From: Polychytrium aggregatum
Taxonomy: Eukaryota; Chytridiomycota; Chytridiomycetes; Polychytriales
Length of the DNA: 25,149 nt
NCBI RefSeq assembly: GCF_025602895.1
Contig: NW_026516540.1
Location: forward strand, 1 to 25,149
Direction of reading: 5' to 3'
Every line of letters begins with the position of its first letter. The first letter of the stretch is position 1. The notes below the pieces were generated by a model. It made no database searches. It was given only the letters and a program-made list of their open reading frames with translations, and was not told the origin of the DNA. The position numbers and the translations under genes are program-made. Shown here piece by piece: positions 1 through 25,149 of the stretch.

Positions 1-685
1 CGGATGCCAGTAGCAACAGTTGCCCAAGCAAGGAGAATGCTCCTGTGGCGAGTCGGGTGTTTCCCACCTAAACCCGACAAGGAGTGCAAAAAGACCGGAC
101 CCAACGGCCCCAAGGTGTATGTCAACAGAAAACATGCAGCAGAATGTGTCCGAGCCAAGGACCGACTCGAGAAATATGTTCACCCCACATCGATCCCCGA
201 AGGCATCACCTACATCGACCTTGCAATCGACGCACTCCCCAAGTTGGCTCGAGTGCCAACAAGACCACTCACCACCGATCCTGAAAAACAGAGAAGATGG
301 CGTGCCAAGCGCAGCCGAGTACTGAACAACAGACCAGCGATCTGGCTGGATGTCGTGGCGGTGCTGGATGACATCGCAACCAAATGTCTGTCGTGGACAG
401 CGGCCCCTCGGGCTGACCAATCGCAGCAAACAAGTACCTGAGAAAGAAACCCTCCCAGACGCATGAGCAGACACTTGGACAGGGAAGCCGGAGCTAGAGT
501 CCCAAACTGTCACTGAATGGATGAGTTCGGCAAAACTTGACATCGCCGTCCCTCCGCAAACAGGCCCCATGGGATAGAGAGCTGTACACCGACGACCCAA
601 ATGTCCCGGTTGGCAAAGCCAACACCCAGTGCCAGAGCCCAAAAGGGACGCTAAGGCAAAGTCTTTAATAAAGACCCACCTATTG
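1..685. other. Outer segment, unrecognised; ends inside a tRNA-Gly copy
   Basis: A reading frame starts at ATG 4 and runs to TGA 439-441 (145 codons), but I recognise no domain in it. Comparison with the right arm shows four one-base indels in homopolymer or near-homopolymer runs (around 60, 87, 138 and 287), so the two arms predict different proteins and neither frame can be trusted. The residues translated between about 160 and 290 (core VHPTSIPEGITYIDLAIDAL) are open in a common frame in both arms and are the best candidate coding piece. A perfect 7-bp stem with a one-base centre lies at 661-675 (gtctttaataaagac), ten bases before the truncated tRNA. The abrupt join at 685/686 suggests the end of an inserted element. 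No terminal repeat or transposase motif is visible. Confidence 0.4.
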
Positions 686-701
686 ACTGGACCAACCATG
701 C
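686..701 (-). pseudogene. Truncated tRNA-Gly 5' fragment (16 nt)
   Basis: On the minus strand these 16 bases equal the first 16 bases of the intact tRNA-Gly at 2492-2562 (gcatggttggtccagt). The 5' flank beyond it (ggaataaccttatca and onward) is also shared with the intact gene. Homology stops abruptly after base 16, where the unrelated outer segment begins. This is a duplicated or interrupted tRNA gene and cannot make a tRNA by itself. Confidence 0.75.
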
Positions 702-840
702 TTGGATGATAAGGTTATTCCAATATGCTATATGAATACAGCAATGCTTGACGCCGCAAACGCAGCCATGAGCCACTCATTCGACACCACAACCACTGCC
801 ATCAGCATTTCATTCGACACCGCAACCACGGCAATCATTG

Positions 841-960
841 CTACCACTGTTACCACGGCAACCACGGCAACCACGGCAACCACGGCAACTACGGCAACTA
901 CGGCAACTACGGCAACTACGGCAACTACGGCAACTACGGCAACTACGGCAACCACTGCAA
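841..960. repeat. 9-bp minisatellite, unit CAACTACGG / CAACCACGG
   Basis: About 13 tandem 9-bp units. The outer units are caaccacgg and the inner seven or so are caactacgg, showing local homogenisation of one variant. The period is a multiple of three, so all frames stay open, which explains the spurious repetitive reading frames on both strands. Confidence 0.9.
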
Positions 961-2223
961 TTCATTGCTGTCCGCTCAAAGCCAAAATGCGCTGTGTACT
1001 TTAACCCATTCTCCCGCGCAAGTGATCAACTCTGTCTACAATGCGACATCAGTATATACCGAATAAATAAACACCCCATTTCTGCTCACGGATGCCTTCT
1101 CCACTTGCCCACAGGGAGCGGCCGAGCCGACACAGCTTTGCGACCACTCTTCGGCCGCAGGCACAAGCTGCCATTTTTCGAAGCTGAACATTGATCCGTA
1201 AATCCGACGAGAATACTGCGCATTACACAGACACATATTTCCGCGCCCGCTTCAGCCACGTAGTAAATTGTACAACTTCGATTGAAGATTATACATGGTC
1301 AATATCTGGGAAAGGACATCCAGAGTGTAAAATCGCATGTACTTCGTTTGTCCATCCGTTTGGCCATCCGCTTGACCATCCGCTTGGCCATCCGCTTGAT
1401 CATCCGTTACCTGTCCCCAGACGCGAGATGTGATGGAGCCGATCGATATCAACCATGCACGTATGATCACCCAGGTCAGCACTCCATATCAATCATACAA
1501 TCGTACAAGGGCGATCTTGTTATGAACCAACGTTGGCGGGAACATATCCGGCGCGCCCTGAACCGCGCGCGCCACGACAGGATATCTTCCTATAAAGCCC
1601 ATGCTCACCCCAAACCAGTATTACTCCTTGTTCGAGGATATTCTTGTTCCTTCATCATAATATATCTCTTCACGTATACAGGCTTGCTGTTTCTCCCTAA
1701 TCTTCCCTAACAGATCTCCCGCAATGTCCCGATATCTTGTTGACCGTATGGTGCTTTGTTTGAGGGATAACTTTGAACAGAGACACCTCAAACGAATAGC
1801 GGCCACGCCTCGAATGAGCTGCGGTGGATATTCAATTCCGAAATCACATCTAAAGATATGATTTCTCAGGTCTTGTAGTACTTGACTGGACATGAGATAC
1901 TTGACATGGTCGCTCCTTTGCAAACGGATCTTTCGAAATGGCAACCGTGGTGAAGACAATAAGATATCACATTTGGAGCCTCCAAAAGCCAACACCAGTG
2001 ACTCAGAGGCAAGTGAGTCGTTGATATACAGACGCGAATGTCGAGAGCAAATCCCTTATATTATCCAAAGTTCGGTTTTTGGAGGCCAGCGTTGACAGGG
2101 ATGCATTATTATCATGCGAAGAATAAATGGATCCAGAGCCATAAGTTGAAACGATCGCTACCCATCTGGCACTGTGACCATGTTGAATTGGGCAACATGC
2201 CGCAAATTTCGGCCTTTGGTGGA
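961..2223. other. Intergenic stretch, no supported gene
   Basis: Apart from the 12-bp minisatellite at 1345-1408, I see no gene here. Frames of 60-140 codons occur on both strands but lack recognisable motifs, and their composition looks like random translation. Two CCCTAA hexamers 10 bp apart (1695-1700, 1705-1710) are too few to be a telomeric array. A GC-rich knot (ggcgcgccctgaaccgcgcgcgcc, split at 1550-1573) stands out from the AT-rich surroundings. Confidence 0.6.
1345..1408. repeat. 12-bp minisatellite, unit CCATCCGCTTGR
   Basis: About five tandem 12-bp units with variants at two positions (ccatccgtttgg, ccatccgcttga, ccatccgcttgg). The array has the same length in the right arm. Frames through it read as repeating tetrapeptides, so the coding appearance there is artefactual. 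Confidence 0.85.
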
Positions 2224-2373
2224 TAGCAGTGGTTGCAGTGGTTGCAATGGTAGCAATGGTAGCAGTGGTTGCAGTGGTTGCAGTGGTTGCAATGATTGCC
2301 GTGGTAGCAGTGGTAGCAGTGGTAGCAGTGGTAGCAGTGGTAGCAGTGGTTGCCGTGGTTTCAGTGGTTGCGG
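2224..2373. repeat. 9-bp minisatellite upstream of tRNA-Gly, unit GGTAGCAGT / GGTTGCAGT
   Basis: About 16 units of 9 bp, with an inner run of near-identical ggtagcagt units flanked by ggttgcagt variants. It ends about 120 bp upstream of the intact tRNA-Gly. It corresponds to the array at 841-960 in opposite orientation but has homogenised a different unit. Confidence 0.9.
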
Positions 2374-2491
2374 TGTCGAATGAAATGCTGATGGCAGTGG
2401 TTGTGGTGTCGAAAGAATAGCTGGTGGCTGCGTTTGCGGCGTCAAGCATTACTGTATTCATATAGCATATTGGAATAACCTTATCATTCAA

Positions 2492-2562
2492 GCATGGTTG
2501 GTCCAGTGGTAGAATTGCCGCCTGCCACGCGGCAGACCCGGGTTCGATTCCCGGACCATGCA
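2492..2562 (+). tRNA. tRNA-Gly (GCC)
   Basis: A 71-nt cloverleaf. The acceptor stem GCATGGT pairs with ACCATGC and the discriminator base is A. The D arm contains ggtccagtggtagaa (A-box type). The anticodon loop CTGCCAC carries GCC, and the T arm is CCGGG-TTCGATT-CCCGG (B-box GGTTCGATTCC). There is no intron. A TTTTT run at 2564-2568 fits an RNA polymerase III terminator. The gene is intact in both arms, with a truncated relative 1.8 kb away at 686-701. Confidence 0.96.
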
Positions 2563-3290
2563 CTTTTTGTCTCGCCGTATTGTGATTCTGACTCTGATTC
2601 CGATTGTCGGTCTTGTCATGTCATACCAACATTTAAGTGTGTGTCCTCCATCACACCTGTTCCTCACTCGTCCGTGCGCATTATTTCTTTTATTTGGAAG
2701 GCTGTGATGTCGCTCGGCCGTCGTACCCATCGATACTGCCCGAGGCAATACGGAGGGCCTGTTGATATCGTCACCTGATTGGGCTTGTCAGCGTGTTTCA
2801 ATAGTCCTATGAACGAGAATGACCACTCCTCCAACACGAATACGGCGTTCAAATAGATTCTTTTGGAACAAGCGATGACGGTAAAGCTTGTCTCACACTT
2901 TCAGCGCGCATGATTTGCTCGGCAGAGCTACGGATAAATCCGGCTGTGGTTGCTGGGAAATTTATCGGCATGATCTGACTCGCTCACAACTTGCGGCGCA
3001 AATATTGGAGCATGGAACAGCCGGACCATATGAGGCTCCTTGGAACCGCTATCCCTGGATGACTCGGCGCTAGGCCAAGTAAATACTCCATTTTGACGAC
3101 CAGGTGCCGCCATTGTGTTTCGCAGCGTGGCACGAATAGAATTACAATATATATATAAACAGCAATTCAAATGTCGAGGGTGGAGATTAGCGCTGGGCAG
3201 TATGATGCGGCGGTGATGGAGCGGCATGGCGGTTGAGGTTGATAAATTTGCCATTATGATCTCAATTTTTTTCGACCTTTCCAAGAAATC
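2563..3290. other. Inter-tRNA spacer, no supported gene
   Basis: The space between the two tRNA genes contains the tRNA-Gly terminator and an alternating TA run at about 3148-3158. A 61-codon open frame at 2888-3073 has no ATG start (it opens with TTG) and no recognisable domain, so I do not call it. Confidence 0.6.
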
Positions 3291-3363
3291 GGCCGCATGG
3301 CCAAATGGATAAGGCGCTTGACTACGAATCAAGAGATTCCAGGTTCGACCCCTGGTGTGGTCG
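3291..3363 (+). tRNA. tRNA-Arg (ACG)
   Basis: A 73-nt cloverleaf. GGCCGCA pairs with TGTGGTC with two G-U pairs, and the discriminator base is G. The D arm is ggccaaatggataaggc. The anticodon stem CTTGA/TCAAG encloses the loop CTACGAA, giving ACG. The T arm is CCAGG-TTCGACC-CCTGG. There is no intron. A TTTT run at 3367-3370 can terminate RNA polymerase III. Confidence 0.96.
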
Positions 3364-4160
3364 TTATTTTGCTCTTGTTTTTGGACATCTGCTGTTCCGT
3401 GGCTCAGGTCATGGCCTCCTGTTGACTTTTGAGAGCCCGCCTGGGACGTGTGATTTTTCGGCTATTGATTATGACTGGCATGGGGAATGGGGCGTGGCAC
3501 CGAACCTCGAACTGGGGGGGGGATAGTTTTATTTTAGCTTGCTTGTAATTTTCTCTATTCAAGCTGAGGGACATCTATACCTCGTCTGTGCTTGCAAATC
3601 ACAGTCGTGAAGGTATGATAAATGTCAATCAGCCACACAAGTACAAGCTTGTCGCTTTCCATCGTGCTCGGCTTGACTCTGCTCCTGTCGTCTCGGACGT
3701 TTCCGTCCACCATTGATGATGACGAGTAACCCGAACACTCTTCCAAGTGTCCTCAACAATGTTTTGACATTCGGTGTTGTCGATCGGATATCTGCATCTC
3801 ACGTCGTTCGTTGTAACCGATCGCAGCAGCCAGTCGCAGTCGTCAGGTCGAGCAGCTTGTCGACTGTCCCGACGCTTTCGTGATTGCTCTTGTTCCAACC
3901 GGGATATCCGAGTTTCGGATCTTCGACGAAACATTCACCTGTTGCATTCAATCATCCCCATCAACACAGCTCGGGGAGTGGTCGAGGCTCAGCGATGCAA
4001 AGATCTCCTCGACCTTGGTGCACTGCTTGCAGGGTCTGTACATTCCCTATGGATGGTCAGAGCGGTGCCTGTACTCAACTCGCTATCATGCTGCAGTAGC
4101 ACCTCTCCACTTTTGATCCTCGCTCGACCCACAGTGCTACCGCCTGCCGCTTGCTGAGGA

Positions 4161-4187
4161 TCTCGAGGGTCTCGAGGGTCTCGAGGA
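4161..4187. repeat. 9-bp tandem repeat TCTCGAGGG, three units (one in the other arm)
   Basis: Three tandem units, the last ending in A. The mirror position in the right arm (20980-20988) has a single unit. This 18-bp difference accounts for the shift of mirror offset from 25167 to 25149. Confidence 0.95.
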
Positions 4188-4294
4188 TCAGTCCATTCTC
4201 CATCGTAGGTCGGATGAGCGTCTTGATGGTCCTCGTTAGAGTCTTGTCTGATGGCCTCGAGGCACCGGAACTCTTTGGCCATTCACATTTCCAT

Positions 4295-4365
4295 GCCATC
4301 AGGTTTCCCTGCCATCAGTGTTTCTCTACCATCAGTATTTCCCTGCCATCCGTATTTCCCTGCCA
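4295..4365. repeat. 17-bp minisatellite, unit GCCATCAGTATTTCCCT
   Basis: Four consecutive units of 16, 17, 17 and 17 bp plus the start of a fifth, each with 1-3 substitutions. It has the same copy number in the right arm. Confidence 0.85.
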
Positions 4366-4905
4366 ACACAAGCACACCTTGATGTTCTTCTCTGGAGGTT
4401 GCGCGACGGGTTTTGATGCAGTCTTGATTGTGGGTGAGCATACGGACTCGGTGTGATCATGCATATGATATGGGCAGAGTACTTTGTGGATCATTCGGGC
4501 AGTAGCTTCCCCAAAGCTGACATGCGGCTGTGTGCATTGTATTTGTGCTTGGTTCGCACATCAAGGCAATGATGTCGTCCATCGACAACCACTCACTCAC
4601 CACTCGCTCACTACTCACCACGTCCAGACCAGCTGAGTCCAGTTGGGCACATCGGAAGATCTGTGTATCTCCTCTGTGTCGCTGTCTCGATTCCCAACCC
4701 CATCTCTGTCTCGGCATTGGATCTGTGGGCCCTGATGGTGATCATCATGACAGTTGTCGATGGAGGACGGCGTTGCATGTCTGAGTGTGAGTTGCCGCCA
4801 AACCAATCGATATCTAACGCTGGTGGTAATGACAGATGCTGGATGTGTGGGAATGCGGGTGACAAGCATTGGTTGACTGGCACTCGATCCATGGATCCAA
4901 TGCGA

Positions 4906-5010
4906 TCCTGGTTTCGTGACTGTGCCACTCTCATTCCATTCCACCCATCTCGCCTGGACATCATCACTGCACTCTCCTCACATCCTAGTCTGTTGCATCA
5001 TTCAGCCAAC
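4906..5010 (+). promoter_or_regulatory. 5' flank of gene A, duplicated upstream of gene C
   Basis: From tcctggttt to the ATG this flank matches 10787-10904 upstream of gene C almost base for base, except that C has a 13-bp insertion (catctcatcgcct) made by local duplication. The insertion is not a multiple of three and puts the upstream frame out of register between the two genes, so the segment is untranslated leader or promoter rather than coding. No TATA box is obvious. Confidence 0.6.
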
Positions 5011-6501
5011 ATGGCTCACCCGGCCATCGATGAACACTACCCAGATAGATTCACCATCATATGCTGCAACGACGGTTTCCAGCTTGCCCTCGACCACAAC
5101 ACCATCAAGATCCTGCTCAGAGTATGCAAACGAGCCCGACCCCTCCTGAGCTCCAAGATGCCTCGCTTCCACCGCTGGTGTCAGAGCATGGAGCTACTCA
5201 ATCTGGAAGGACACCTGCGAATCGGTCTCACACCGAGCGACCAGATCGCCCTCTCGCTACACTTCGAGGATCAGGCTGCAGCCGACCGATCCTGGCTCGT
5301 TGCTCAAGCAGACCAAGGAAACGCACCGGTCTCGTATCTCCTTGCTCGGGTGTTGCAATCTGAGAACGACACAGAAGCAGACGATGACGATGAGCTTGAA
5401 GAGAATGCCAAGCATCAGCAAATCTTCCACCATCTGAAGCGGGCAGCCAAGGCAAGCCATTCCATGGCCCAGTTCCATCTTGCAGAATGCTATCTCAACG
5501 GTCGCGGCGTCAAACAAGACTTCACCAAGGCCGTGGAACTGTATCGCAGACTTGCAGATCACGGAATATCTCAGGCTCAAGTCGCCCTCGGTCAATGCTA
5601 CGAGAGTGGTGAAGGTGTCGATCAGAGCTTCACCACCGCGATCGAGTGGTATTCCAAGGCAGCAGATCAAGCCAACGAAGGCGGCCGGCTCCATATCGGG
5701 TTCCTCCAAGGGTGGCTCTCGTTCATCGGCCATGATGTCGAACAGAGCGACGTTAATGCGCTCAACCACTGGCAGGAAGTCAGCACCCAGTCCACCGATC
5801 CGATCATCAAACCCATCGCAACTCACATGGTCGGATGGATGCACTACCTTGGCCGAGGAACCGTACGCGACGAGCCAAGGGGTGTCAGGATCATCCGAGA
5901 GAACAAGTCGGACCGTTTCAAGCTCGGAGAGTCCGAGAGTCTGGCTGCATACGGTGATGCCAACTCCACCTCGCCCGTTGCCCGCAAGCTCTTCCAGTTT
6001 TGCCAGTTGGGATCAGATCGTGACTGGCTCTGCAAGCACTTCATGGCTCTGTGTCTGCACCATGGTTTCGGCACTACCCAGGACCGGATGAAGGCAGCTT
6101 GTGTCTTTGAGCAGCTCGCCAACGACGGCCACAGCGACAGCCAGTTGCGGATCGGAAAATACCTCCACTGGGGCCTGGGAGTATTGGAGGACCGAATTAC
6201 GGCATTCGAGTGGTACAGCAAATCGGCCGACCAAGGCAATTCGTACGGGCAGTGGATGACTGGTGTATGCTACTACTGGGGATACGGAGTAACCAAGGAC
6301 TTTGCCAAAGCATTCGAGTGGTATCGCAGATCGGCCGAGCAGGGAAATCGATACGGACAAGATTCTATCGGTAGATGCTACAAACATGGCGAAGGGGTAC
6401 CTGAAGACATCGACACTGCCGTCCTCTGGTACCACAAGTCCGCCGACCAGGGACACAAAAACGCCATCGAGAGACTCAAGGAGCTCGGCGAGTGGCATTG
6501 A
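5011..6501 (+). CDS. Gene A: SEL1-repeat protein (496 aa), left copy
   Basis: This is a single-exon frame from ATG 5011 to TGA. I chose this ATG because its context (gccaacATGg) is favourable, gene C has the matching ATG, and the shared sequence upstream is broken by a 13-bp indel between the paralogues. The frame stays open upstream to 4663 without being supported as coding. Residues 1-100 form an unassigned N-terminal region (motifs IICCNDGFQLALDHN, RWCQSMELL), followed by an acidic stretch (TEADDDDELEE, 121-131). SEL1-like repeats of about 36 residues follow at roughly 151-186, 187-222, 265-295 (degenerate), 338-374, 375-410, 411-446 and 447-482. Typical cores are GVCYYWGYGVTKDFAKAFEWY and SAEQGN. 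SEL1 repeats form alpha-alpha superhelical scaffolds for protein-protein contact. There is no signal peptide or membrane segment. Function beyond scaffold is unknown. Residues about 191-247 differ from the right copy. Confidence 0.85.
   Translation: MAHPAIDEHYPDRFTIICCNDGFQLALDHNTIKILLRVCKRARPLLSSKMPRFHRWCQSMELLNLEGHLRIGLTPSDQIALSLHFEDQAAADRSWLVAQADQGNAPVSYLLARVLQSENDTEADDDDELEENAKHQQIFHHLKRAAKASHSMAQFHLAECYLNGRGVKQDFTKAVELYRRLADHGISQAQVALGQCYESGEGVDQSFTTAIEWYSKAADQANEGGRLHIGFLQGWLSFIGHDVEQSDVNALNHWQEVSTQSTDPIIKPIATHMVGWMHYLGRGTVRDEPRGVRIIRENKSDRFKLGESESLAAYGDANSTSPVARKLFQFCQLGSDRDWLCKHFMALCLHHGFGTTQDRMKAACVFEQLANDGHSDSQLRIGKYLHWGLGVLEDRITAFEWYSKSADQGNSYGQWMTGVCYYWGYGVTKDFAKAFEWYRRSAEQGNRYGQDSIGRCYKHGEGVPEDIDTAVLWYHKSADQGHKNAIERLKELGEWH
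5581..5751 (+). other. Divergent tract inside gene A (arm-specific)
   Basis: Between 5581 and 5699 I count about 26 substitutions against the mirror (19468-19586), with one more at 5751, while flanking gene sequence is identical. There are no indels and the frame is kept. The right-arm version shares stretches with gene C (for example attgccctcggt, gagaatggtgaaggtgtcga) but is not identical to it, which points to a further paralogue as donor. Confidence 0.85.
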
Positions 6502-7154
6502 TCCCCGATTTCACATGAGTGCATCATATCCAAACAAAAAAGCTGCAACAATGCAGAGGTAATCAGAACAGTCAAGTAACCAGGATGTCAACACCCATCC
6601 CAGTCACGGAGACGTCAAACAGTGTTTTAGAGCGTGGTTCCAATGAAGCAACGATCGCTGAGTGATGTTATGTTTTATATTCAATACCTTCACTCCACAA
6701 GCCCGTGGTGTCCCATCACAACCTTACGCTGACGGACCCGTGGAGACATCGAATGATCCGACAACGACAAAATCCGCAATCAGATATTTTGAGAATGTCC
6801 CGTACTTTGGCTTCCCATGACCCAGCCGAACGAATCCCCGAGCGGGACCTGGAGACATGCTTGTCCCTCTACACCCTCTCAAAAGCAGTACGCCCCCCCC
6901 CGAATGGCTCGCCGTATGAACTGAAGAGTTGACGAGAGCCACAACAGGGGTGCATGGGCATGCTTGTTCACCCACTGCTGGGCAAAATACGGAACTGATG
7001 GCTGGCTGTCTTAAATCCATACAACTATCATAAACAGCAGATATCCAAACCGATCCCGAGTGTGGGAAGACGCCTCATGACTGCCACGAGGAGATCGGTA
7101 TTCACTGGGAAATCTCAACAGACTCGAGCTGATGGAAAATGGAAAATACAGGGT
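6502..7154. other. Intergenic between convergent genes A and K
   Basis: This region holds the 3' ends of A (plus) and K (minus). A nine-C run lies at 6893-6901. Segments 6636-6690 and 6928-6990 have weak relatives in the central spacer, suggesting a family-specific 3' flank. I see no gene. An A-rich run at 6534-6542 lies soon after the A stop, but no clear polyadenylation signal can be named. Confidence 0.6.
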
Positions 7155-10100
7155 CTATCCGAGTCGATCGAGACTGGTTTGTGCAAAAGTGTTGCCCTGT
7201 GCAGCTGCCTTTTGATACCAGTATCGGGCAGTGCCGATGTTCTTGGTGGCACCCTTGCCGTCACGGTAGCAGTCGCCGAGCCAGTCCTGCGCACTTGCAT
7301 TCCCCTGATTTGCGGCCTTGGTGAACCACTCGACAGCTTTCGCATAGTTTTGGGTGGCACCTTCGCCTTTGTAGTAGCAGACACCGAGGCTGAATTGGGC
7401 ATTTGTACTCCCCTGGTTGGCGGCTTTCGTATACCACTCGACAGCCTTGGCATAGTCCTGGGTGACGCCTTGACCATTACGGTAACAGACGCCGAGGTTG
7501 AACTGGGCACTTGCATTCCCCTGATTGGCCGCCTTGGTGTACCACTCGGCAGCCTTACCATAATCCTGGGTGACACCTTGACCGTTGTCATAGCAGAGAC
7601 CGAGCCAGTTCTGAGCACCAGCATTCCCCTGGTTGGCTGCTTTCGTATACCACTCGACAGCCTTGGCATAATTCTGGATGACACCTTCACCTTTGCAGTA
7701 GCGGATACCGAGGCTGAGTTGAGCATTTGCATTCCCCTGGTTGGCGGCCTTGGTATACCACTCGACAGCCTTGGCATAGTCTTCGGTAACGCCATTGCCG
7801 TTGTAGTAGCAGTCGCCGAGCCAGTCCTGGGCATTAGCATAGCCCTGATTTGCGGCCTTAGTGAACCACTCGACAGCCTTCACATAGTTCTGAGTGACAC
7901 CTTCGCCTTTGTAGTAGCGGATACCGAGGCCGAATTGAGCATTTGCATTCCCCTGGTTGGCGGCCTTGGTATACCACTCGACAGCCTTGGCATGGTCTTC
8001 GGTAACGCCATTGCCGTTGTAGTAGCAGTCGCCGAGCCAGTCCTGGGCACTTGCATTCCCCTGATTTGCGGCCTTGGTGAACCACTCGACAGCTTTCGCA
8101 TAGTTCTGGGTGGCACCGTCACCTTTGTAGTAGCGGACACCGAGGCTGAATTGGGCATTTGTACTACCCTGGTTGGCGGCCTTGGTGAACCACTCGACAG
8201 CCCTGGCATAGTCCTGGGTGACACCTTGACCGCTAAAATAGCAATGACCAAGTTGGTTCTGAGCACTTGCATTCCCCTGGATGGCGGCCTTGATGAACCA
8301 CTCGACAGCCTTGACATGGTCTTGAGTGGCACCGTTTCCATCACGGTAACATATTCCAAGCATGAACTGAGCATTTGCATTCCCCTGGTTGGCTGCTTTC
8401 GTATACCACTCGACAGCCTTGGCATAGTCCTGGGCGACACCTTGACCGTTGTAGTAGCAGCTGCCGAGGTTGACCTGACCTAACACATGTCCCGTATTCG
8501 CAGCCTTGGTGAGCAATACTATGGCTTTGGCATGGTCCTGGGGGACTCCCTGACCTTCAAGATATTGGAGTCCAAGGCTTCGAATTGCATTTACGTCACT
8601 GCCTTCTGCCGATCTGCGATACCATTCGACGGACATGATGTGGTCCTGAGGAACACCAAAGCCCTCCAGGTAGCAGTCAGCCAGCACGTACTGACTGATG
8701 CTGTAGCCTTGATTGGCCAGTTCGTGCAGGATTCCAACAGCCAATTCTTGGTCTTTCTTTGTTCCAAAACCTCCGAGCATGCATCTTGCGACGAGGTGTC
8801 TGCAGAACCAATCGTCCTCAGCACCGAATTGGCAGAGTCGGAAGAACTTCGCTGCTATGGGCGAAGACAATTCAATCTTGCCATCACCATGAATGAAAGC
8901 CTGTCCGAAAGGAAACTCTGGTGTTTTGCTCTTGAGAAAGAATTGGTTGGCCTGGGGCTCATCTTGCTGTGTTCCGCGGCCGAGGTAATAACACCAACCC
9001 ATCATGAATGTTGCGATGGGCTTCATGATTGCGTCAGACGACTGGTTGTGGACCAGCTGCCAGTAGGCGAAGGCCTCAGTGTCACTCTTGGTGATGCCGA
9101 TGCCAGCAAAGTGCAGCCAGCCGAGCTGAAAGGCGGCTTCGAGGTTTCCAGAATCAGCAGCAGCCTGATACAGTTCGGCGGCAGTGGTCCAGGCAGGGTC
9201 ATTCGCTGCCTTACCATCAGAGACCATGCGGGCCGCAGTGAGATGAGATTCTGCGTCGCCGCGCCGAATGCTCATGACTACTGCCCTTGGGATACCAAGA
9301 TTGCCCAGTCGTTGTGCCAACGTTTGGCTCTCCGACGAGAGGGAAGAGTCAGCGGTATGCTGTTGCGAGCTTGGTTGGGGTCTATCGCTGTGAGGAGTTG
9401 GAGCTGGAGAAACGCTCAAGTCCTGGAGTCGGGTCGACAGGGCCAAATCCGATGGAGAACGGGCTGCTCCCAAAGTTTGTGGATGGATATCCTTGTAGTC
9501 ACTGAGGCTCAGGACAATATCCTTGAATGCGGGACGCATGGCGGGATCTTGATGCCAGCAGGCTTCGATGAGTGACCAAATATCTCCGGGGATGCCATCG
9601 AGTCGCTTGGGGCGCTTTCCCTTCTCGACCAGCCGCTCGATCGCTCGGCTTCTCAATGCTTGACCATCGACGGAAATCCAAACTGGACTAGCGTTGGTCA
9701 GGGCTTCGTACATGGTGATGGCGAAGGCATAGACATCCGTCTTGATCGTGGTGCCAGACGGATTCTCGTCGTCGAGCATCTCGGGAGCCATGTATCCCTC
9801 AGTGCCACCAGTCGAACCGCCGTTTCGATTGTGATTCATCGAGGCCGAGGTGTGCTTGGTTCTGGACAAGCCAAAGTCGGTGACGATGGCCTGGAAGGAT
9901 TTGTCCAAGAGGATGTTTGCTGCCTTGAGGTCGCCGTGGATGATTCTTCTGGCGTGCAGATAGGCCAGGGCCGACGCAACCTGGTACAGAAGACTGAGTT
10001 TCTCCTCGAGGGAAATGTTGTTATTGGCCACATAGTCACGAAGCGTGCCGTTTGGCATGAACGGAGAGACCATGAAAGGAGTGATCTTTTCACCGGCGTC

Positions 10101-14262: not shown

Positions 14263-14793
14263 GTTGGCTGAATGATGCAACAGACTAGGATGTGAGGAGA
14301 GTGCAGTGATGATGTCCAGGCGATGAGATGAGGCGAGATGGGTGGAATGGAATGGGAGTGGCACGGTCACCAAACCAGGAACTTGGCTGGATCCAGTGAT
14401 GGGCCCAGCCGCAAGGTAATCGAGTCTTCGACTGACATCATAGGGCAGATACCCAAGGGGATGATCTGATCCACTCAGCCGTTGTTGGCCGAGTGTTTGA
14501 TATGATCTGGCATCATGTACTATGTCCGGGAGATATGATATCCCCGAGTGTCTATCAAACACTGTTTCCCCCCAGCCTGTCATATGGGGTGGTTCAAGTG
14601 TTGCCCCGATCGAGCTGCTGCGCAAATGCCACGTGTACGCGCAGCACAAACAACACGTTCCTGTGCGCGCTTGTGTCCTGGCCGTGCTGCCTGTGCCGCA
14701 GGAGTCACTCTGACAAGGGCTTTCTGACCAAGCCGAAAATCCCCGCCTTCTACCGCTCCTCCTTGCACCCCACATCCATCCATCTCCTTCCGG
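14263..14793. promoter_or_regulatory. Divergent promoter region between C' and K', right copy
   Basis: Mirror of 10374-10904. It contains the inverted-repeat element at 14493-14562 and, next to C', the 5' flank shared with gene A at 14263-14380. I saw no differences from the left copy. Confidence 0.6.
14493..14562. promoter_or_regulatory. Inverted-repeat element, right copy
   Basis: Mirror of 10605-10674 with the same arms (GTGTTTGATA and TATCAAACAC) and the same central imperfect palindrome. Confidence 0.35.
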
Positions 14794-17700: not shown

Positions 17701-18012
17701 GTCACCCAGGACTATGCCAAGGCTGTCGAGTGGTATACGAAAGCCGCCAACCAGGGGAGTACAAATGCCCAATTCAGCCTCGGTGTCTGCTACTACAAAG
17801 GCGAAGGTGCCACCCAAAACTATGCGAAAGCTGTCGAGTGGTTCACCAAGGCCGCAAATCAGGGGAATGCAAGTGCGCAGGACTGGCTCGGCGACTGCTA
17901 CCGTGACGGCAAGGGTGCCACCAAGAACATCGGCACTGCCCGATACTGGTATCAAAAGGCAGCTGCACAGGGCAACACTTTTGCACAAACCAGTCTCGAT
18001 CGACTCGGATAG
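14794..18012 (+). CDS. Gene K': TKL-type protein kinase with SEL1 repeats (1072 aa), right copy
   Basis: The protein is identical to gene K: kinase domain at about 23-290 with GRGGFGEV, VAIK, HGDLKAAN, DFG and APE all present, a Ser/Pro/Gln linker, and about 17 SEL1 repeats of which the last 12 are near-perfect 36-residue units. Four nucleotide differences from K were found, at codons 66 (Tyr), 121 (Ser), 285 (Asp) and 571 (Gly). All are third-position and synonymous. The start ATG is preceded by a pyrimidine-rich leader. A TKL-group Ser/Thr kinase is inferred; its partners and pathway are unknown. Confidence 0.93.
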   Translation: MTSKPFVHQPQDRPSWYISPSDITDRSASPIGRGGFGEVFTGSYFGTQVAIKQLLGAPNDPELASYHHEIGVWQNLSHPHVLPLLGACDKGDAGEKITPFMVSPFMPNGTLRDYVANNNISLEEKLSLLYQVASALAYLHARRIIHGDLKAANILLDKSFQAIVTDFGLSRTKHTSASMNHNRNGGSTGGTEGYMAPEMLDDENPSGTTIKTDVYAFAITMYEALTNASPVWISVDGQALRSRAIERLVEKGKRPKRLDGIPGDIWSLIEACWHQDPAMRPAFKDIVLSLSDYKDIHPQTLGAARSPSDLALSTRLQDLSVSPAPTPHSDRPQPSSQQHTADSSLSSESQTLAQRLGNLGIPRAVVMSIRRGDAESHLTAARMVSDGKAANDPAWTTAAELYQAAADSGNLEAAFQLGWLHFAGIGITKSDTEAFAYWQLVHNQSSDAIMKPIATFMMGWCYYLGRGTQQDEPQANQFFLKSKTPEFPFGQAFIHGDGKIELSSPIAAKFFRLCQFGAEDDWFCRHLVARCMLGGFGTKKDQELAVGILHELANQGYSISQYVLADCYLEGFGVPQDHIMSVEWYRRSAEGSDVNAIRSLGLQYLEGQGVPQDHAKAIVLLTKAANTGHVLGQVNLGSCYYNGQGVAQDYAKAVEWYTKAANQGNANAQFMLGICYRDGNGATQDHVKAVEWFIKAAIQGNASAQNQLGHCYFSGQGVTQDYARAVEWFTKAANQGSTNAQFSLGVRYYKGDGATQNYAKAVEWFTKAANQGNASAQDWLGDCYYNGNGVTEDHAKAVEWYTKAANQGNANAQFGLGIRYYKGEGVTQNYVKAVEWFTKAANQGYANAQDWLGDCYYNGNGVTEDYAKAVEWYTKAANQGNANAQLSLGIRYCKGEGVIQNYAKAVEWYTKAANQGNAGAQNWLGLCYDNGQGVTQDYGKAAEWYTKAANQGNASAQFNLGVCYRNGQGVTQDYAKAVEWYTKAANQGSTNAQFSLGVCYYKGEGATQNYAKAVEWFTKAANQGNASAQDWLGDCYRDGKGATKNIGTARYWYQKAAAQGNTFAQTSLDRLG
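16678..17985 (+). repeat. 108-bp tandem SEL1-coding repeat, right copy
   Basis: Twelve units, identical in translation to the left array and with the same alternating 216-bp sub-structure. Equal copy number in both arms implies recent duplication or ongoing homogenisation, since such arrays usually change length readily. Confidence 0.9.
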
Positions 18013-18665
18013 ACCCTGTATTTTCCATTTTCCATCAGCTCGAGTCTGTTGAGATTTCCCAGTGAATACCGATCTCCTCGTGGCAGTCATGAGGCGTCTT
18101 CCCACACTCGGGATCGGTTTGGATATCTGCTGTTTATGATAGTTGTATGGATTTAAGACAGCCAGCCATCAGTTCCGTATTTTGCCCAGCAGTGGGTGAA
18201 CAAGCATGCCCATGCACCCCTGTTGTGGCTCTCGTCAACTCTTCAGTTCATACGGCGAGCCATTCGGGGGGGGGCGTACTGCTTTTGAGAGGGTGTAGAG
18301 GGACAAGCATGTCTCCAGGTCCCGCTCGGGGATTCGTTCGGCTGGGTCATGGGAAGCCAAAGTACGGGACATTCTCAAAATATCTGATTGCGGATTTTGT
18401 CGTTGTCGGATCATTCGATGTCTCCACGGGTCCGTCAGCGTAAGGTTGTGATGGGACACCACGGGCTTGTGGAGTGAAGGTATTGAATATAAAACATAAC
18501 ATCACTCAGCGATCGTTGCTTCATTGGAACCACGCTCTAAAACACTGTTTGACGTCTCCGTGACTGGGATGGGTGTTGACATCCTGGTTACTTGACTGTT
18601 CTGATTACCTCTGCATTGTTGCAGCTTTTTTGTTTGGATATGATGCACTCATGTGAAATCGGGGA
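18013..18665. other. Intergenic between K' and A' 3' ends
   Basis: Mirror of 6502-7154, including the nine-base G run at 18266-18274. No gene seen. Confidence 0.6.
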
Positions 18666-20156
18666 TCAATGCCACTCGCCGAGCTCCTTGAGTCTCTCGA
18701 TGGCGTTTTTGTGTCCCTGGTCGGCGGACTTGTGGTACCAGAGGACGGCAGTGTCGATGTCTTCAGGTACCCCTTCGCCATGTTTGTAGCATCTACCGAT
18801 AGAATCTTGTCCGTATCGATTTCCCTGCTCGGCCGATCTGCGATACCACTCGAATGCTTTGGCAAAGTCCTTGGTTACTCCGTATCCCCAGTAGTAGCAT
18901 ACACCAGTCATCCACTGCCCGTACGAATTGCCTTGGTCGGCCGATTTGCTGTACCACTCGAATGCCGTAATTCGGTCCTCCAATACTCCCAGGCCCCAGT
19001 GGAGGTATTTTCCGATCCGCAACTGGCTGTCGCTGTGGCCGTCGTTGGCGAGCTGCTCAAAGACACAAGCTGCCTTCATCCGGTCCTGGGTAGTGCCGAA
19101 ACCATGGTGCAGACACAGAGCCATGAAGTGCTTGCAGAGCCAGTCACGATCTGATCCCAACTGGCAAAACTGGAAGAGCTTGCGGGCAACGGGCGAGGTG
19201 GAGTTGGCATCACCGTATGCAGCCAGACTCTCGGACTCTCCGAGCTTGAAACGGTCCGACTTGTTCTCTCGGATGATCCTGACACCCCTTGGCTCGTCGC
19301 GTACGGTTCCTCGGCCAAGGTAGTGCATCCATCCGACCATGTGAGTTGCGATGGGTTTGATGATCGGATCGGTGGACTGGGTGCTGACTTCCTGCCAGTG
19401 GTTGAGCGCATTAACTTCGCTCTGTTCGACATCATGGCCGATGAACGAGAGCCACCCTTGGAGGAACACGATATGGTGCCGGCCGTCTTCACTGCCTTGG
19501 TCGGCAGCCTTTGAGTACCACTCGATGGCTGTGTTATACTCTTGATCGACACCTTCACCATTCTCATAGCATCCACCGAGGGCAATTTGAGCCTGAGATA
19601 TTCCGTGATCTGCAAGTCTGCGATACAGTTCCACGGCCTTGGTGAAGTCTTGTTTGACGCCGCGACCGTTGAGATAGCATTCTGCAAGATGGAACTGGGC
19701 CATGGAATGGCTTGCCTTGGCTGCCCGCTTCAGATGGTGGAAGATTTGCTGATGCTTGGCATTCTCTTCAAGCTCATCGTCATCGTCTGCTTCTGTGTCG
19801 TTCTCAGATTGCAACACCCGAGCAAGGAGATACGAGACCGGTGCGTTTCCTTGGTCTGCTTGAGCAACGAGCCAGGATCGGTCGGCTGCAGCCTGATCCT
19901 CGAAGTGTAGCGAGAGGGCGATCTGGTCGCTCGGTGTGAGACCGATTCGCAGGTGTCCTTCCAGATTGAGTAGCTCCATGCTCTGACACCAGCGGTGGAA
20001 GCGAGGCATCTTGGAGCTCAGGAGGGGTCGGGCTCGTTTGCATACTCTGAGCAGGATCTTGATGGTGTTGTGGTCGAGGGCAAGCTGGAAACCGTCGTTG
20101 CAGCATATGATGGTGAATCTATCTGGGTAGTGTTCATCGATGGCCGGGTGAGCCAT
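18666..20156 (-). CDS. Gene A': SEL1-repeat protein (496 aa), right copy
   Basis: This has the same architecture as gene A: unassigned N-terminal 100 residues, acidic stretch, then about seven SEL1-like repeats. ATG is at 20154-20156. It differs from A mainly within residues 191-247, where A' reads ALGGCYENGEGVDQEYNTA in place of ALGQCYESGEGVDQSFTTA, with further changes at 221-230 and 247. SEL1 consensus positions are preserved in both, so both should fold. The differences fall in one repeat and its linker to the next, the surface expected to set partner specificity; that last point is inference. Confidence 0.85.
   Translation of the reverse strand: MAHPAIDEHYPDRFTIICCNDGFQLALDHNTIKILLRVCKRARPLLSSKMPRFHRWCQSMELLNLEGHLRIGLTPSDQIALSLHFEDQAAADRSWLVAQADQGNAPVSYLLARVLQSENDTEADDDDELEENAKHQQIFHHLKRAAKASHSMAQFHLAECYLNGRGVKQDFTKAVELYRRLADHGISQAQIALGGCYENGEGVDQEYNTAIEWYSKAADQGSEDGRHHIVFLQGWLSFIGHDVEQSEVNALNHWQEVSTQSTDPIIKPIATHMVGWMHYLGRGTVRDEPRGVRIIRENKSDRFKLGESESLAAYGDANSTSPVARKLFQFCQLGSDRDWLCKHFMALCLHHGFGTTQDRMKAACVFEQLANDGHSDSQLRIGKYLHWGLGVLEDRITAFEWYSKSADQGNSYGQWMTGVCYYWGYGVTKDFAKAFEWYRRSAEQGNRYGQDSIGRCYKHGEGVPEDIDTAVLWYHKSADQGHKNAIERLKELGEWH
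19416..19586 (-). other. Divergent tract inside gene A' (arm-specific)
   Basis: Counterpart of 5581-5751. On the minus strand it begins attgccctcggt, as gene C does, and then mixes C-like and private substitutions. Same length as the left tract. Confidence 0.85.
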
Positions 20157-20261
20157 GTTGGCTGAATGATGCAACAGACTAGGATGTGAGGAGAGTGCAG
20201 TGATGATGTCCAGGCGAGATGGGTGGAATGGAATGAGAGTGGCACAGTCACGAAACCAGGA
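20157..20261 (-). promoter_or_regulatory. 5' flank of gene A'
   Basis: Mirror of 4906-5010. It matches the flank of gene C' apart from the 13-bp insertion present there. Confidence 0.55.
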
Positions 20262-21786
20262 TCGCATTGGATCCATGGATCGAGTGCCAGTCAACCAATG
20301 CTTGTCACCCGCATTCCCACACATCCAGCATCTGTCATTACCACCAGCGTTAGATATCGATTGGTTTGGCGGCAACTCACACTCAGACATGCAACGCCGT
20401 CCTCCATCGACAACTGTCATGATGATCACCATCAGGGCCCACAGATCCAATGCCGAGACAGAGATGGGGTTGGGAATCGAGACAGCGACACAGAGGAGAT
20501 ACACAGATCTTCCGATGTGCCCAACTGGACTCAGCTGGTCTGGACGTGGTGAGTAGTGAGCGAGTGGTGAGTGAGTGGTTGTCGATGGACGACATCATTG
20601 CCTTGATGTGCGAACCAAGCACAAATACAATGCACACAGCCGCATGTCAGCTTTGGGGAAGCTACTGCCCGAATGATCCACAAAGTACTCTGCCCATATC
20701 ATATGCATGATCACACCGAGTCCGTATGCTCACCCACAATCAAGACTGCATCAAAACCCGTCGCGCAACCTCCAGAGAAGAACATCAAGGTGTGCTTGTG
20801 TTGGCAGGGAAATACGGATGGCAGGGAAATACTGATGGTAGAGAAACACTGATGGCAGGGAAACCTGATGGCATGGAAATGTGAATGGCCAAAGAGTTCC
20901 GGTGCCTCGAGGCCATCAGACAAGACTCTAACGAGGACCATCAAGACGCTCATCCGACCTACGATGGAGAATGGACTGATCCTCGAGATCCTCAGCAAGC
21001 GGCAGGCGGTAGCACTGTGGGTCGAGCGAGGATCAAAAGTGGAGAGGTGCTACTGCAGCATGATAGCGAGTTGAGTACAGGCACCGCTCTGACCATCCAT
21101 AGGGAATGTACAGACCCTGCAAGCAGTGCACCAAGGTCGAGGAGATCTTTGCATCGCTGAGCCTCGACCACTCCCCGAGCTGTGTTGATGGGGATGATTG
21201 AATGCAACAGGTGAATGTTTCGTCGAAGATCCGAAACTCGGATATCCCGGCTGGAACAAGAGCAATCACGAAAGCGTCGGGACAGTCGACAAGCTGCTCG
21301 ACCTGACGACTGCGACTGGCTGCTGCGATCGGTTACAACGAACGACGTGAGATGCAGATATCCGATCGACAACACCGAATGTCAAAACATTGTTGAGGAC
21401 ACTTGGAAGAGTGTTCGGGTTACTCGTCATCATCAATGGTGGACGGAAACGTCCGAGACGACAGGAGCAGAGTCAAGCCGAGCACGATGGAAAGCGACAA
21501 GCTTGTACTTGTGTGGCTGATTGACATTTATCATACCTTCACGACTGTGATTTGCAAGCACAGACGAGGTATAGATGTCCCTCAGCTTGAATAGAGAAAA
21601 TTACAAGCAAGCTAAAATAAAACTATCCCCCCCCCCAGTTCGAGGTTCGGTGCCACGCCCCATTCCCCATGCCAGTCATAATCAATAGCCGAAAAATCAC
21701 ACGTCCCGGGCGGGCTCTCAAAAGTCAACAGGAGGCCATGACCTGAGCCACGGAACAGCAGATGTCCAAAAACAAGAGCAAAATAA
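20262..21786. other. Intergenic stretch, no supported gene (right copy)
   Basis: Mirror of about 3364-4905. It has one TCTCGAGGA unit at 20980-20988 where the left arm has three, the 17-bp minisatellite at 20802-20872, and a ten-C run near 21627-21636. No gene is supported on either strand. Confidence 0.55.
20802..20872. repeat. 17-bp minisatellite, right copy
   Basis: Reverse complement of 4295-4365, with the same four-plus units. Confidence 0.85.
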
Positions 21787-21859
21787 CGACCACACCAGGG
21801 GTCGAACCTGGAATCTCTTGATTCGTAGTCAAGCGCCTTATCCATTTGGCCATGCGGCC
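21787..21859 (-). tRNA. tRNA-Arg (ACG), right copy
   Basis: Identical in sequence to 3291-3363, with intact acceptor, D, anticodon (ACG) and T arms. A pol III T-run follows on the minus strand. Confidence 0.96.
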
Positions 21860-22587
21860 GATTTCTTGGAAAGGTCGAAAAAAATTGAGATCATAATGGC
21901 AAATTTATCAACCTCAACCGCCATGCCGCTCCATCACCGCCGCATCATACTGCCCAGCGCTAATCTCCACCCTCGACATTTGAATTGCTGTTTATATATA
22001 TATTGTAATTCTATTCGTGCCACGCTGCGAAACACAATGGCGGCACCTGGTCGTCAAAATGGAGTATTTACTTGGCCTAGCGCCGAGTCATCCAGGGATA
22101 GCGGTTCCAAGGAGCCTCATATGGTCCGGCTGTTCCATGCTCCAATATTTGCGCCGCAAGTTGTGAGCGAGTCAGATCATGCCGATAAATTTCCCAGCAA
22201 CCACAGCCGGATTTATCCGTAGCTCTGCCGAGCAAATCATGCGCGCTGAAAGTGTGAGACAAGCTTTACCGTCATCGCTTGTTCCAAAAGAATCTATTTG
22301 AACGCCGTATTCGTGTTGGAGGAGTGGTCATTCTCGTTCATAGGACTATTGAAACACGCTGACAAGCCCAATCAGGTGACGATATCAACAGGCCCTCCGT
22401 ATTGCCTCGGGCAGTATCGATGGGTACGACGGCCGAGCGACATCACAGCCTTCCAAATAAAAGAAATAATGCGCACGGACGAGTGAGGAACAGGTGTGAT
22501 GGAGGACACACACTTAAATGTTGGTATGACATGACAAGACCGACAATCGGAATCAGAGTCAGAATCACAATACGGCGAGACAAAAAG
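21860..22587. other. Inter-tRNA spacer, right copy
   Basis: Mirror of 2563-3290. No gene supported. Confidence 0.6.
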
Positions 22588-22658
22588 TGCATGGTCCGGG
22601 AATCGAACCCGGGTCTGCCGCGTGGCAGGCGGCAATTCTACCACTGGACCAACCATGC
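22588..22658 (-). tRNA. tRNA-Gly (GCC), right copy
   Basis: Identical to 2492-2562, intact, with the T-run terminator on the minus strand (aaaaa at 22582-22586 on the plus strand). Confidence 0.96.
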
Positions 22659-22776
22659 TTGAATGATAAGGTTATTCCAATATGCTATATGAATACAGTA
22701 ATGCTTGACGCCGCAAACGCAGCCACCAGCTATTCTTTCGACACCACAACCACTGCCATCAGCATTTCATTCGACA

Positions 22777-22926
22777 CCGCAACCACTGAAACCACGGCAA
22801 CCACTGCTACCACTGCTACCACTGCTACCACTGCTACCACTGCTACCACGGCAATCATTGCAACCACTGCAACCACTGCAACCACTGCTACCATTGCTAC
22901 CATTGCAACCACTGCAACCACTGCTA
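22777..22926. repeat. 9-bp minisatellite near tRNA-Gly, right copy
   Basis: Mirror of 2224-2373, with the same unit order and number as far as I can read. Confidence 0.9.
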
Positions 22927-24189
22927 TCCACCAAAGGCCGAAATTTGCGGCATGTTGCCCAATTCAACATGGTCACAGTGCCAGATGGGTAGCGATCGTT
23001 TCAACTTATGGCTCTGGATCCATTTATTCTTCGCATGATAATAATGCATCCCTGTCAACGCTGGCCTCCAAAAACCGAACTTTGGATAATATAAGGGATT
23101 TGCTCTCGACATTCGCGTCTGTATATCAACGACTCACTTGCCTCTGAGTCACTGGTGTTGGCTTTTGGAGGCTCCAAATGTGATATCTTATTGTCTTCAC
23201 CACGGTTGCCATTTCGAAAGATCCGTTTGCAAAGGAGCGACCATGTCAAGTATCTCATGTCCAGTCAAGTACTACAAGACCTGAGAAATCATATCTTTAG
23301 ATGTGATTTCGGAATTGAATATCCACCGCAGCTCATTCGAGGCGTGGCCGCTATTCGTTTGAGGTGTCTCTGTTCAAAGTTATCCCTCAAACAAAGCACC
23401 ATACGGTCAACAAGATATCGGGACATTGCGGGAGATCTGTTAGGGAAGATTAGGGAGAAACAGCAAGCCTGTATACGTGAAGAGATATATTATGATGAAG
23501 GAACAAGAATATCCTCGAACAAGGAGTAATACTGGTTTGGGGTGAGCATGGGCTTTATAGGAAGATATCCTGTCGTGGCGCGCGCGGTTCAGGGCGCGCC
23601 GGATATGTTCCCGCCAACGTTGGTTCATAACAAGATCGCCCTTGTACGATTGTATGATTGATATGGAGTGCTGACCTGGGTGATCATACGTGCATGGTTG
23701 ATATCGATCGGCTCCATCACATCTCGCGTCTGGGGACAGGTAACGGATGATCAAGCGGATGGCCAAGCGGATGGTCAAGCGGATGGCCAAACGGATGGAC
23801 AAACGAAGTACATGCGATTTTACACTCTGGATGTCCTTTCCCAGATATTGACCATGTATAATCTTCAATCGAAGTTGTACAATTTACTACGTGGCTGAAG
23901 CGGGCGCGGAAATATGTGTCTGTGTAATGCGCAGTATTCTCGTCGGATTTACGGATCAATGTTCAGCTTCGAAAAATGGCAGCTTGTGCCTGCGGCCGAA
24001 GAGTGGTCGCAAAGCTGTGTCGGCTCGGCCGCTCCCTGTGGGCAAGTGGAGAAGGCATCCGTGAGCAGAAATGGGGTGTTTATTTATTCGGTATATACTG
24101 ATGTCGCATTGTAGACAGAGTTGATCACTTGCGCGGGAGAATGGGTTAAAGTACACAGCGCATTTTGGCTTTGAGCGGACAGCAATGAA
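22927..24189. other. Intergenic stretch, no supported gene (right copy)
   Basis: Mirror of 961-2223, including the 12-bp minisatellite at 23742-23805. No gene seen. Confidence 0.6.
23742..23805. repeat. 12-bp minisatellite, right copy
   Basis: Reverse complement of 1345-1408 (unit YCAAGCGGATGG), about five units. Confidence 0.85.
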
Positions 24190-24464
24190 TTGCAGTGGTT
24201 GCCGTAGTTGCCGTAGTTGCCGTAGTTGCCGTAGTTGCCGTAGTTGCCGTAGTTGCCGTAGTTGCCGTGGTTGCCGTGGTTGCCGTGGTTGCCGTGGTAA
24301 CAGTGGTAGCAATGATTGCCGTGGTTGCGGTGTCGAATGAAATGCTGATGGCAGTGGTTGTGGTGTCGAATGAGTGGCTCATGGCTGCGTTTGCGGCGTC
24401 AAGCATTGCTGTATTCATATAGCATATTGGAATAACCTTATCATCCAAGCATGGTTGGTCCAGT
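24190..24464 (+). repeat. Duplicate of the tRNA-Gly 5' flank block, right copy
   Basis: Mirror of 686-960. The 9-bp array at 24190-24309 is followed by the tRNA flank and the truncated tRNA start. Confidence 0.8.
24449..24464 (+). pseudogene. Truncated tRNA-Gly 5' fragment, right copy
   Basis: First 16 bases of tRNA-Gly, then an abrupt change to caataggtgggtc, which starts the outer segment. Confidence 0.75.
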
Positions 24465-25149
24465 CAATAGGTGGGTCTTTATTAAAGACTTTGCCTTAGC
24501 GTCCCTTTTGGGCTCTGGCACTGGGTGTTGGCTTTGCCAACCGGGACATTTGGGTCGTCGGTGTACAGCTCTCTATCCCATGGGGCCTGTTTGCGGAGGG
24601 ACGGCGATGTCAAGTTTTGCCGAACTCATCCATTCAGTGACAGTTTGGGACTCCAGCTCCGGCTTCCCTGTCCAAGTGTCTGCTCATGCGTCTGGGAGGG
24701 TTTCTTTCTCAGGTACTTGTTTGCTGCGATTGGTCAGCCCGAGGGGCCGCTGTCCACGACAGACATTTGGTTGCGATGTCATCCAGCACCGCCACGACAT
24801 CCAGCCAGATCGCTGGTCTGTTGTTCAGTACTCGGCTGCGCTTGGCACGCCATCTTCTCTGTTTTTTCAGGATCGGTGGTGAGTGGTCTTGTTGGCACTC
24901 GAGCCAACTTGGGGAGTGCGTCGATTGCAAGGTCGATGTAGGTGATGCCTTCGGGGATCGATGTGGGGTGAACATATTTCTCGAGTCGGTCCTTGGCTCG
25001 GACACATTCTTGCTGCATGTTTTCTGTTGACATACACCTTGGGGCCGTTGGGTCCGGTCTTTTGCACTCCTTGTCGGGTTTAGGTGGGAACACCCGACTC
25101 GCCACAGGAGCATTCTCCTTGCTTGGGCAACTGTTGCTACTGGCATCCG
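24465..25149. other. Outer segment, unrecognised (right copy)
   Basis: Mirror of 1-685 with four one-base length differences (a T pair versus triplet near 25090, a 4 versus 5 base run near 25060, an extra base near 25010, and a 6 versus 5 base run near 24863). The resulting frames differ from those of the left arm. No domain recognised. Confidence 0.4.

Follow-up and report, generated by a model that had tools for sequence, protein, structure and literature searches.

The chytrid Polychytrium aggregatum (Chytridiomycota) probably carries a real nuclear palindrome of about 39 kilobases (kb) on both homologs, in which two 19.2-kb arms face each other across a 391-base-pair (bp) spacer; it would have arisen by fold-back and been kept uniform by gene conversion between its arms. 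The window studied here is the whole of the 25,149-bp contig NW_026516540.1 of the diploid assembly GCF_025602895.1 (C266 below), so that its ends are contig ends and not the ends of the arms. Searches covered the complete assembly (64.68 Mb in 418 contigs), and many DNA matches came back as equal-scoring contig pairs, as would be expected where the two haplotypes of a diploid are kept apart. In 2022 Amses and colleagues reportedly described a diploid life cycle for such chytrids.

Comparison of the window with itself by BLAST returned one long inverted match, positions 1–12386 against 25149–12778, covering 12,397 columns at 99.04% identity with 83 mismatches and 13 gap openings, and gave no inverted self-match for the spacer at 12387–12777. 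Chance cannot produce a 12.4-kb inverted repeat at 99% identity. An initial annotation made from the letters alone had described a 25-kb quasi-palindrome with arms of about 12.4 kb, a 391-bp spacer and genes, tRNAs and satellites repeated in mirror order; the alignment agrees in each respect, as the tRNA-Gly and tRNA-Arg genes, the satellites and the long open reading frames (ORFs) all occur twice in mirror order. The same annotation called the two ends exact reverse complements, which holds over the first 60 bases and fails beyond them, the first four differences being single-base insertions or deletions (indels). Differences between the arms are clustered, with an 18-bp indel at 4161–4178, 27 differences in 5581–5751, 67 in 11217–11375 and few elsewhere. 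From the outside inward, each arm holds the 3′ end of a long interspersed nuclear element (LINE), two tRNA genes, a Sel1-repeat gene (A), a kinase gene with Sel1 repeats and a second Sel1-repeat gene (B), and the arm match ends at the stop codons of the two convergent copies of gene B.

Two flank contexts and haplotype-tracking variants

The outer arm continues for about 6.8 kb beyond the window in four contigs, C114, C40, C18 and C37, which together with the 12.4 kb inside the window gives a total arm length of about 19.2 kb. These contigs lead into two different flanks, each represented by two haplotypes: flank X in C114 and C40 (23 substitutions in 5,930 aligned bp of flank) and flank Y in C18 and C37 (22 substitutions in 7,934 bp), for a haplotype divergence of 0.28–0.39%. 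X and Y share the arm through C114 position 14070 and abruptly diverge at 14071, with no long X–Y match past 14070 within the first 20 kb of the four contigs, and a stretch of the X flank (430 bp in the query) was matched by C114 and C40 only among the 40 of 189 candidates scored. As assembled, each haplotype carries the outer arm twice, in two flank contexts. All four contigs break within the arm, at window positions ~7271 (C114), ~7271 (C40), ~5325 (C18) and ~712 (C37), and the centre of the palindrome is present in C266 only.

The boundary between X and Y falls inside a gene for IST1, and this gives the duplication a direction. On Y the IST1 coding sequence runs on, with the Pfam Ist1 domain matched on the exons of C18, and a whole-genome search placed all six Ist1 family matches on C18 and C37 (7 of 7 candidates scored). 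On X, exon 1 and intron 1 are kept, but the sequence changes after the first 6 bp of exon 2 (exon limits read by eye), and the junction is the same in both haplotypes. Counted in contigs, not read depth, the outer arm beyond the window is present four times and IST1 twice. Because IST1 is whole on Y and truncated on X, Y would be the original context and X would carry the copied end; and since this derived X junction is common to both haplotypes, the simplest view is that the duplication predates their split. In both haplotypes X thus holds a shortened second copy of IST1, made up of the upstream region, exon 1 and intron 1 (C114:~13600–14070), which could be transcribed.

We aligned the four contigs over the shared outer arm and sorted the two-against-two substitutions by whether they grouped contigs by haplotype or by flank. 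All 18 paired C114 with C18 and C40 with C37 (7 outside the LINE and 11 inside it), as did all three two-against-two indel events, and no site within the arm separated X from Y; the sole such site, 14071, is the first base past the boundary. The last substitution with the haplotype pattern lies 9 bp from the last shared base. Within one haplotype the outer arms are 99.97–100% identical in substitutions over about 7.2 kb (C40 against C37, none in 7,198 bp; C114 against C18, 2 in 7,220), as compared with 19 substitutions in 7,135 bp (C114/C40) and 22 in 7,134 bp (C18/C37) between haplotypes. The phase between X and Y contigs is itself read from these shared alleles. A shared old duplication should have accumulated differences between X and Y, and none is seen, so gene conversion between the arms is the simplest reading. 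Merging of equal X and Y differences by the assembler is unlikely, given that it separated haplotypes at about 0.3%. The two signs of a palindrome kept by conversion are thus both found here: arms more than 99% identical around an unlike spacer, and variants common to both arms of one lineage that differ between lineages, the lineages being two haplotypes and not species.

The initial annotation had offered a recent inverted duplication or continuing arm-to-arm conversion as causes of the likeness; the haplotype patterns in the four outer contigs favour the second, and the X junction common to both haplotypes speaks against the first. A real palindrome formed by a young duplication and later exchanged between homologs, with no continuing conversion of its arms, strikes us as improbable. 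It would account for the low divergence of the inner arms, where 7 of about 11,340 positions differ once the LINE, the two large difference patches and the 18-bp indel are left out, against 45 of 13,864 in the flanks (Fisher p ~2e-6, with patches dropped after being seen and with the compared arms coming from different haplotypes), and C266 itself could be a crossover product. On the other hand, one X junction is common to the haplotypes although each retains alleles of its own as close as 9 bp to it, whereas spread of a young duplication by crossover would bring one haplotype's alleles to the junction. Under arm-to-arm conversion, the lower divergence of the inner arms fits a stronger homogenization near the centre.

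The LINE, in whose 3′ part both ends of the window fall, ties the inner arm to the outer. This element of about 5.46 kb encodes a reverse transcriptase and an endonuclease (window 1–701, C114:6572–12119) and has landed in a tRNA-Gly gene, duplicating 16 bp of its target: in C114, C40 and C18 the first 16 nucleotides of the gene stand on the inner side of the LINE and the whole gene on the outer side, which indicates that the two parts of the arm formed a single locus until the LINE was inserted. A search with 2 kb of the element found 11 other places in the genome that match at 99–100%, and this dispersal probably explains where C266 stops. Four of the other copies were examined; three (C68, C375 and C179) have the same 16 bases exactly at their edge and one (C32) does not, which suggests that the element targets tRNA-Gly genes. 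No four-unit TTAGGG run was matched anywhere in the assembly, this exact pattern being the one telomere motif tried; telomeres are either absent from the assembly or built on a different motif.

Haplotype make-up of the centre and its alternatives

The features of the window are as follows.

1–12386, + strand: arm 1, the inner 12.4 kb of ~19.2 kb; C114 allele in the overlap at 30 of 30 C114/C40 substitutions
12387–12777, no strand: non-palindromic spacer of 391 bp, bounded by the stop codons of a convergent pair of Sel1 genes
12778–25149, − strand: arm 2; C40 allele in the overlap at 30 of 30, and C37 allele at the one informative site covered (6777)
1–685, + strand: 3′ part of the LINE (reverse transcriptase and endonuclease), arm 1; the element extends beyond the window
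24465–25149, − strand: 3′ part of the LINE, arm 2; position set by mirror alignment
686–701, − strand: 16-bp target-site duplicate, the first 16 nucleotides of a tRNA-Gly gene; full gene across the LINE at C114:12048–12119
2492–2563, + strand: tRNA-Gly(GCC), arm 1
22587–22658, − strand: tRNA-Gly(GCC), arm 2
3290–3364, + strand: tRNA-Arg(ACG), arm 1
21786–21860, − strand: tRNA-Arg(ACG), arm 2
4906–6501, + strand: Sel1-repeat gene A, arm 1; start from the homology unit, open frame from 4663
18666–20261, − strand: Sel1-repeat gene A, arm 2
5581–5751, + strand: patch of 27 differences in gene A, attributed to interlocus conversion with a Sel1 pair at ~52 kb
7155–10373, − strand: protein kinase with Sel1 repeats, 1,072 amino acids, arm 1
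14794–18012, + strand: kinase-Sel1 gene, arm 2
10787–12391, + strand: Sel1-repeat gene B, arm 1; frame broken near 11720, stop codon at the palindrome centre
12773–14380, − strand: Sel1-repeat gene B, arm 2; converges on the copy in arm 1
11217–11375, + strand: patch of 67 differences in gene B

The two kinase-Sel1 copies differ at four nucleotides and encode an identical protein. Gene B has the same frame break in both arms (window 11720–11935 and its mirror), where the ORFs 10350–11933 and 11723–12391 overlap in different frames, a sign of either a disabled gene or an intron.

Over the 7.27 kb in which C266 overlaps C114 and C40, arm 1 carries the C114 allele and arm 2 the C40 allele at 30 of 30 substitutions, and 19 of the 20 gap columns follow the same assignment; arm 2 holds four more single-base differences found nowhere else in the comparison. 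The contig therefore joins two haplotypes, and it is no faithful copy of a single chromosome unless a crossover took place inside the palindrome. At the centre, four arms would have been collapsed into one contig that pairs an arm of haplotype 1 with an arm of haplotype 2. This could come about because the identical arms of one haplotype collapse in the assembly graph and a path, being unable to re-walk its own complement, would exit via the other haplotype; alternatively, a crossover within the palindrome may have produced a real recombinant chromosome. By either route the palindrome exists; a third, in which the contig was misjoined at an inverted Sel1 paralog, would do away with it. Two haplotypes joined head to head had been raised in the initial annotation, to be recognized by arms that phase as alleles, and formally they do so; yet this does not by itself remove the palindrome, since the outer arm has two flank contexts per haplotype.

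The best other copies of the spacer, among the 40 of 112 candidates scored, lie between convergent Sel1 genes at C40:52286–52845 (98%) and C114:52577–53136 (96%). In this ~52-kb pair, as seen in C40, the inverted homology covers about 1.48 kb at 81% and extends no further over the 11 kb examined, and its left gene matches gene A plus 0.36 kb upstream. The existence of a second convergent Sel1 pair with the same spacer shows the central arrangement of C266 to be, by this comparison, a natural one.

A misjoin is the main rival to the palindrome, and we consider it unlikely. In that account X and Y are dispersed segmental duplicates that do not face each other, and C266 is a misjoin in which the assembler passed from gene B across the spacer to an inverted Sel1 paralog and from there onto the reverse-complemented arm of the other haplotype. 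The joining of two haplotypes in C266 and the occurrence elsewhere of a convergent Sel1 pair with the same spacer are both in its favour, as is the identity between arms, which is 95.5% in gene B against 98.2% in gene A, so that the gene B of arm 2 could be a different paralog. Furthermore, the Y-linked inner arm is directly visible in C18 only, to window ~5325, beyond which it is extrapolated. Against it, no other continuation past the spacer turned up among the candidates scored (40 of 112 for the spacer, 40 of 270 for the kinase region): the best other spacer copies, at 96–98%, are those of the ~52-kb pair, and C266, with two copies, was the only contig to match inner-arm DNA of the kinase region at 99% or more. 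Each of the four outer contigs ends within the arm, as expected of an unresolved palindrome, a 1.6-kb paralog would be short for a long-read misjoin, and dispersed loci would have to exchange sequence up to 9 bp from the boundary to homogenize it. That X and Y are placed head to head is deduced from C266 together with the lack of another continuation among these candidates.

That C266 is a fold-back sequencing artefact, a molecule turned back on itself through a missed hairpin adapter or chimeric amplification, is scarcely credible. Such an origin would suit a contig that is palindromic throughout, with symmetric ends, but its arms differ by 1% and come from different haplotypes, its asymmetric 391-bp spacer is bounded by stop codons, the outer arm stands in two flank contexts per haplotype, and the contigs C339 and C222 have no inverted self-match.

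Several observations weigh against a palindrome with converted arms, besides the haplotype mixture of C266 and the limited view of the Y-linked inner arm. The fold-back control just mentioned is thin, as C339 and C222 are 2 of 418 contigs, chosen non-randomly and 98.4% alike over 13.5 kb, and so represent one locus. In the outer arm, C114 alone differs from its three counterparts by two substitutions and a microsatellite length at C114 13936–13944, and nine further indel events (4 in the LINE and 5 outside it) involve single contigs. The first 5.3 kb of C18 (1–5316) hold 23 private indel columns and are C40-like at 3 of 4 inner informative events; this inner end may be a haplotype switch or a poor, thinly covered contig end. 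Finally, C37 starts about 10 bases inside the target duplicate of the LINE, and its first bases are error-rich, with indels that hide any exact copy.

Proposed fold-back origin and exchange among Sel1 genes

We propose that the palindrome was seeded by similar convergent Sel1 genes separated by a short spacer, which would have folded back on each other. Repair synthesis starting at the centre would then have made an outward copy of the Y-side arm, broken off after 6 bp of IST1 exon 2 and been linked to the X flank, so that Y kept IST1 whole and X received a truncated piece. Since then, as the site patterns support, gene conversion has homogenized the arms, so that variants track the haplotype and not the arm. 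Two marks would be expected of such an event. One is short inverted homology at the seed, for which the convergent Sel1 genes whose stop codons lie at the centre are a candidate. The other is a secondary junction closing the copied tract, which is present on X at the IST1 truncation, with the gene intact on Y. The ~52-kb pair, two Sel1 paralogs that converge on a spacer of about 0.4 kb, may resemble what such a seed looked like.

In addition to exchange between the arms, the Sel1 genes of the palindrome would receive short patches from this Sel1 pair, which lies about 38 kb out on the X side. Both large patches of arm differences sit within Sel1 genes. Of their four versions, three find a 99–100% match (100-column windows) in a gene of the ~52-kb pair, in C114 or C40: both arm versions of the gene A patch, and the arm 2 version of the gene B patch. 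None of the eight gene copies compared comes close to the arm 1 version of the gene B patch. These matches imply that the Sel1 genes also swap short tracts between loci. The ~52-kb pair is itself divergent, its two haplotypes (C114:51077–54636 against C40:50786–54345) being 89.8% identical where these contigs agree at about 99.6% in their flank at 14–20 kb, and the patchwork of matches points to heavy interlocus conversion there.

Mirrored matches in the spacer search also led us to suspect a second palindrome in C13, a contig of 1.05 Mb. This turned out to be a 2.3-kb inverted repeat (C13:19824–22129 and 28792–31096) of 99.05% identity whose copies lie about 6.7 kb apart.

Relation to known palindromes and significance

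Palindromes kept by conversion are known mainly from sex chromosomes, the human Y palindromes among them, and there conversion is taken to stand in for meiotic exchange. Arm-to-arm gene conversion is established for palindromes of mammalian X chromosomes and the willow W, and the mammalian cases resemble ours in having arms more than 99% identical and in the inference of conversion from variants shared by the arms (PMC8981503, PMC7023750). Those palindromes lie on sex chromosomes; in P. aggregatum the palindrome would be carried by both homologs, which differ from each other, so that conversion can be read from the two haplotypes of one individual.

Large palindromes have a precedent in fungi. 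Accessory chromosome 14 of Zymoseptoria tritici holds a very large one, whose extent its authors compare with the human Y palindromes (PMC3681731). It likewise belongs to a fungal nuclear genome and is tied to transposable elements, but lies within an insert on an accessory chromosome, flanked by Copia long terminal repeats, and the passages covered do not show haplotype-resolved arm conversion (PMC3681731). The palindrome of P. aggregatum is on both homologs and takes its direction from IST1. By title or the start of the abstract, the literature on the P. aggregatum genome held no item on palindromes, and searches combining large palindromes with fungus, genome assembly and inverted repeat brought nothing matching. 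What is unusual here is that both homologs of an early-diverging, diploid fungus carry the palindrome and that the haplotype evidence can be read directly.

Fold-back at hairpin-forming sequences is known in yeast (PMC7467729). Fold-back inversions of yeast and human also start from a short inverted seed with a loop and are resolved by a secondary rearrangement (PMC7467729, PMC10766186). In P. aggregatum the presumed seed is a pair of 1.6-kb genes with the 391-bp spacer as its loop, the event was natural and the mechanism is deduced from breakpoints only; the yeast mechanism would apply here by analogy.

Inverted repeats also frame regional centromeres, and a centromere was rejected as an explanation: the 391-bp spacer lies between two genes, and a gene-poor core of kilobase size is lacking. 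In fission yeast, tRNA genes lie near centromeres. The centromere inverted repeats of Candida tropicalis are more alike within than across centromeres (PMC4741521). The arms in P. aggregatum differ from such centromeres in being gene-rich as well as in their short spacer.

The fullest version of our account, in which a 39-kb palindrome of a diploid zoosporic fungus, older than the haplotypes, was born by Sel1 fold-back, undergoes conversion within each homolog to within 9 bp of the edge of the duplication and trades short patches with a second Sel1 pair nearby, is one we hold tentatively, as possible rather than established. Haplotype-by-arm patterns across contigs can help to tell a real palindrome from an artefact, even where the central contig mixes haplotypes, and the truncated IST1 fragment gives both the direction and the exact edge of the duplication, which makes its origin testable. 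With a palindrome on both homologs of a diploid, a single individual is enough to set arm conversion beside exchange between homologs. If the fullest version is true, the palindrome would act as a conversion engine for a fast-diversifying kinase/Sel1 family.

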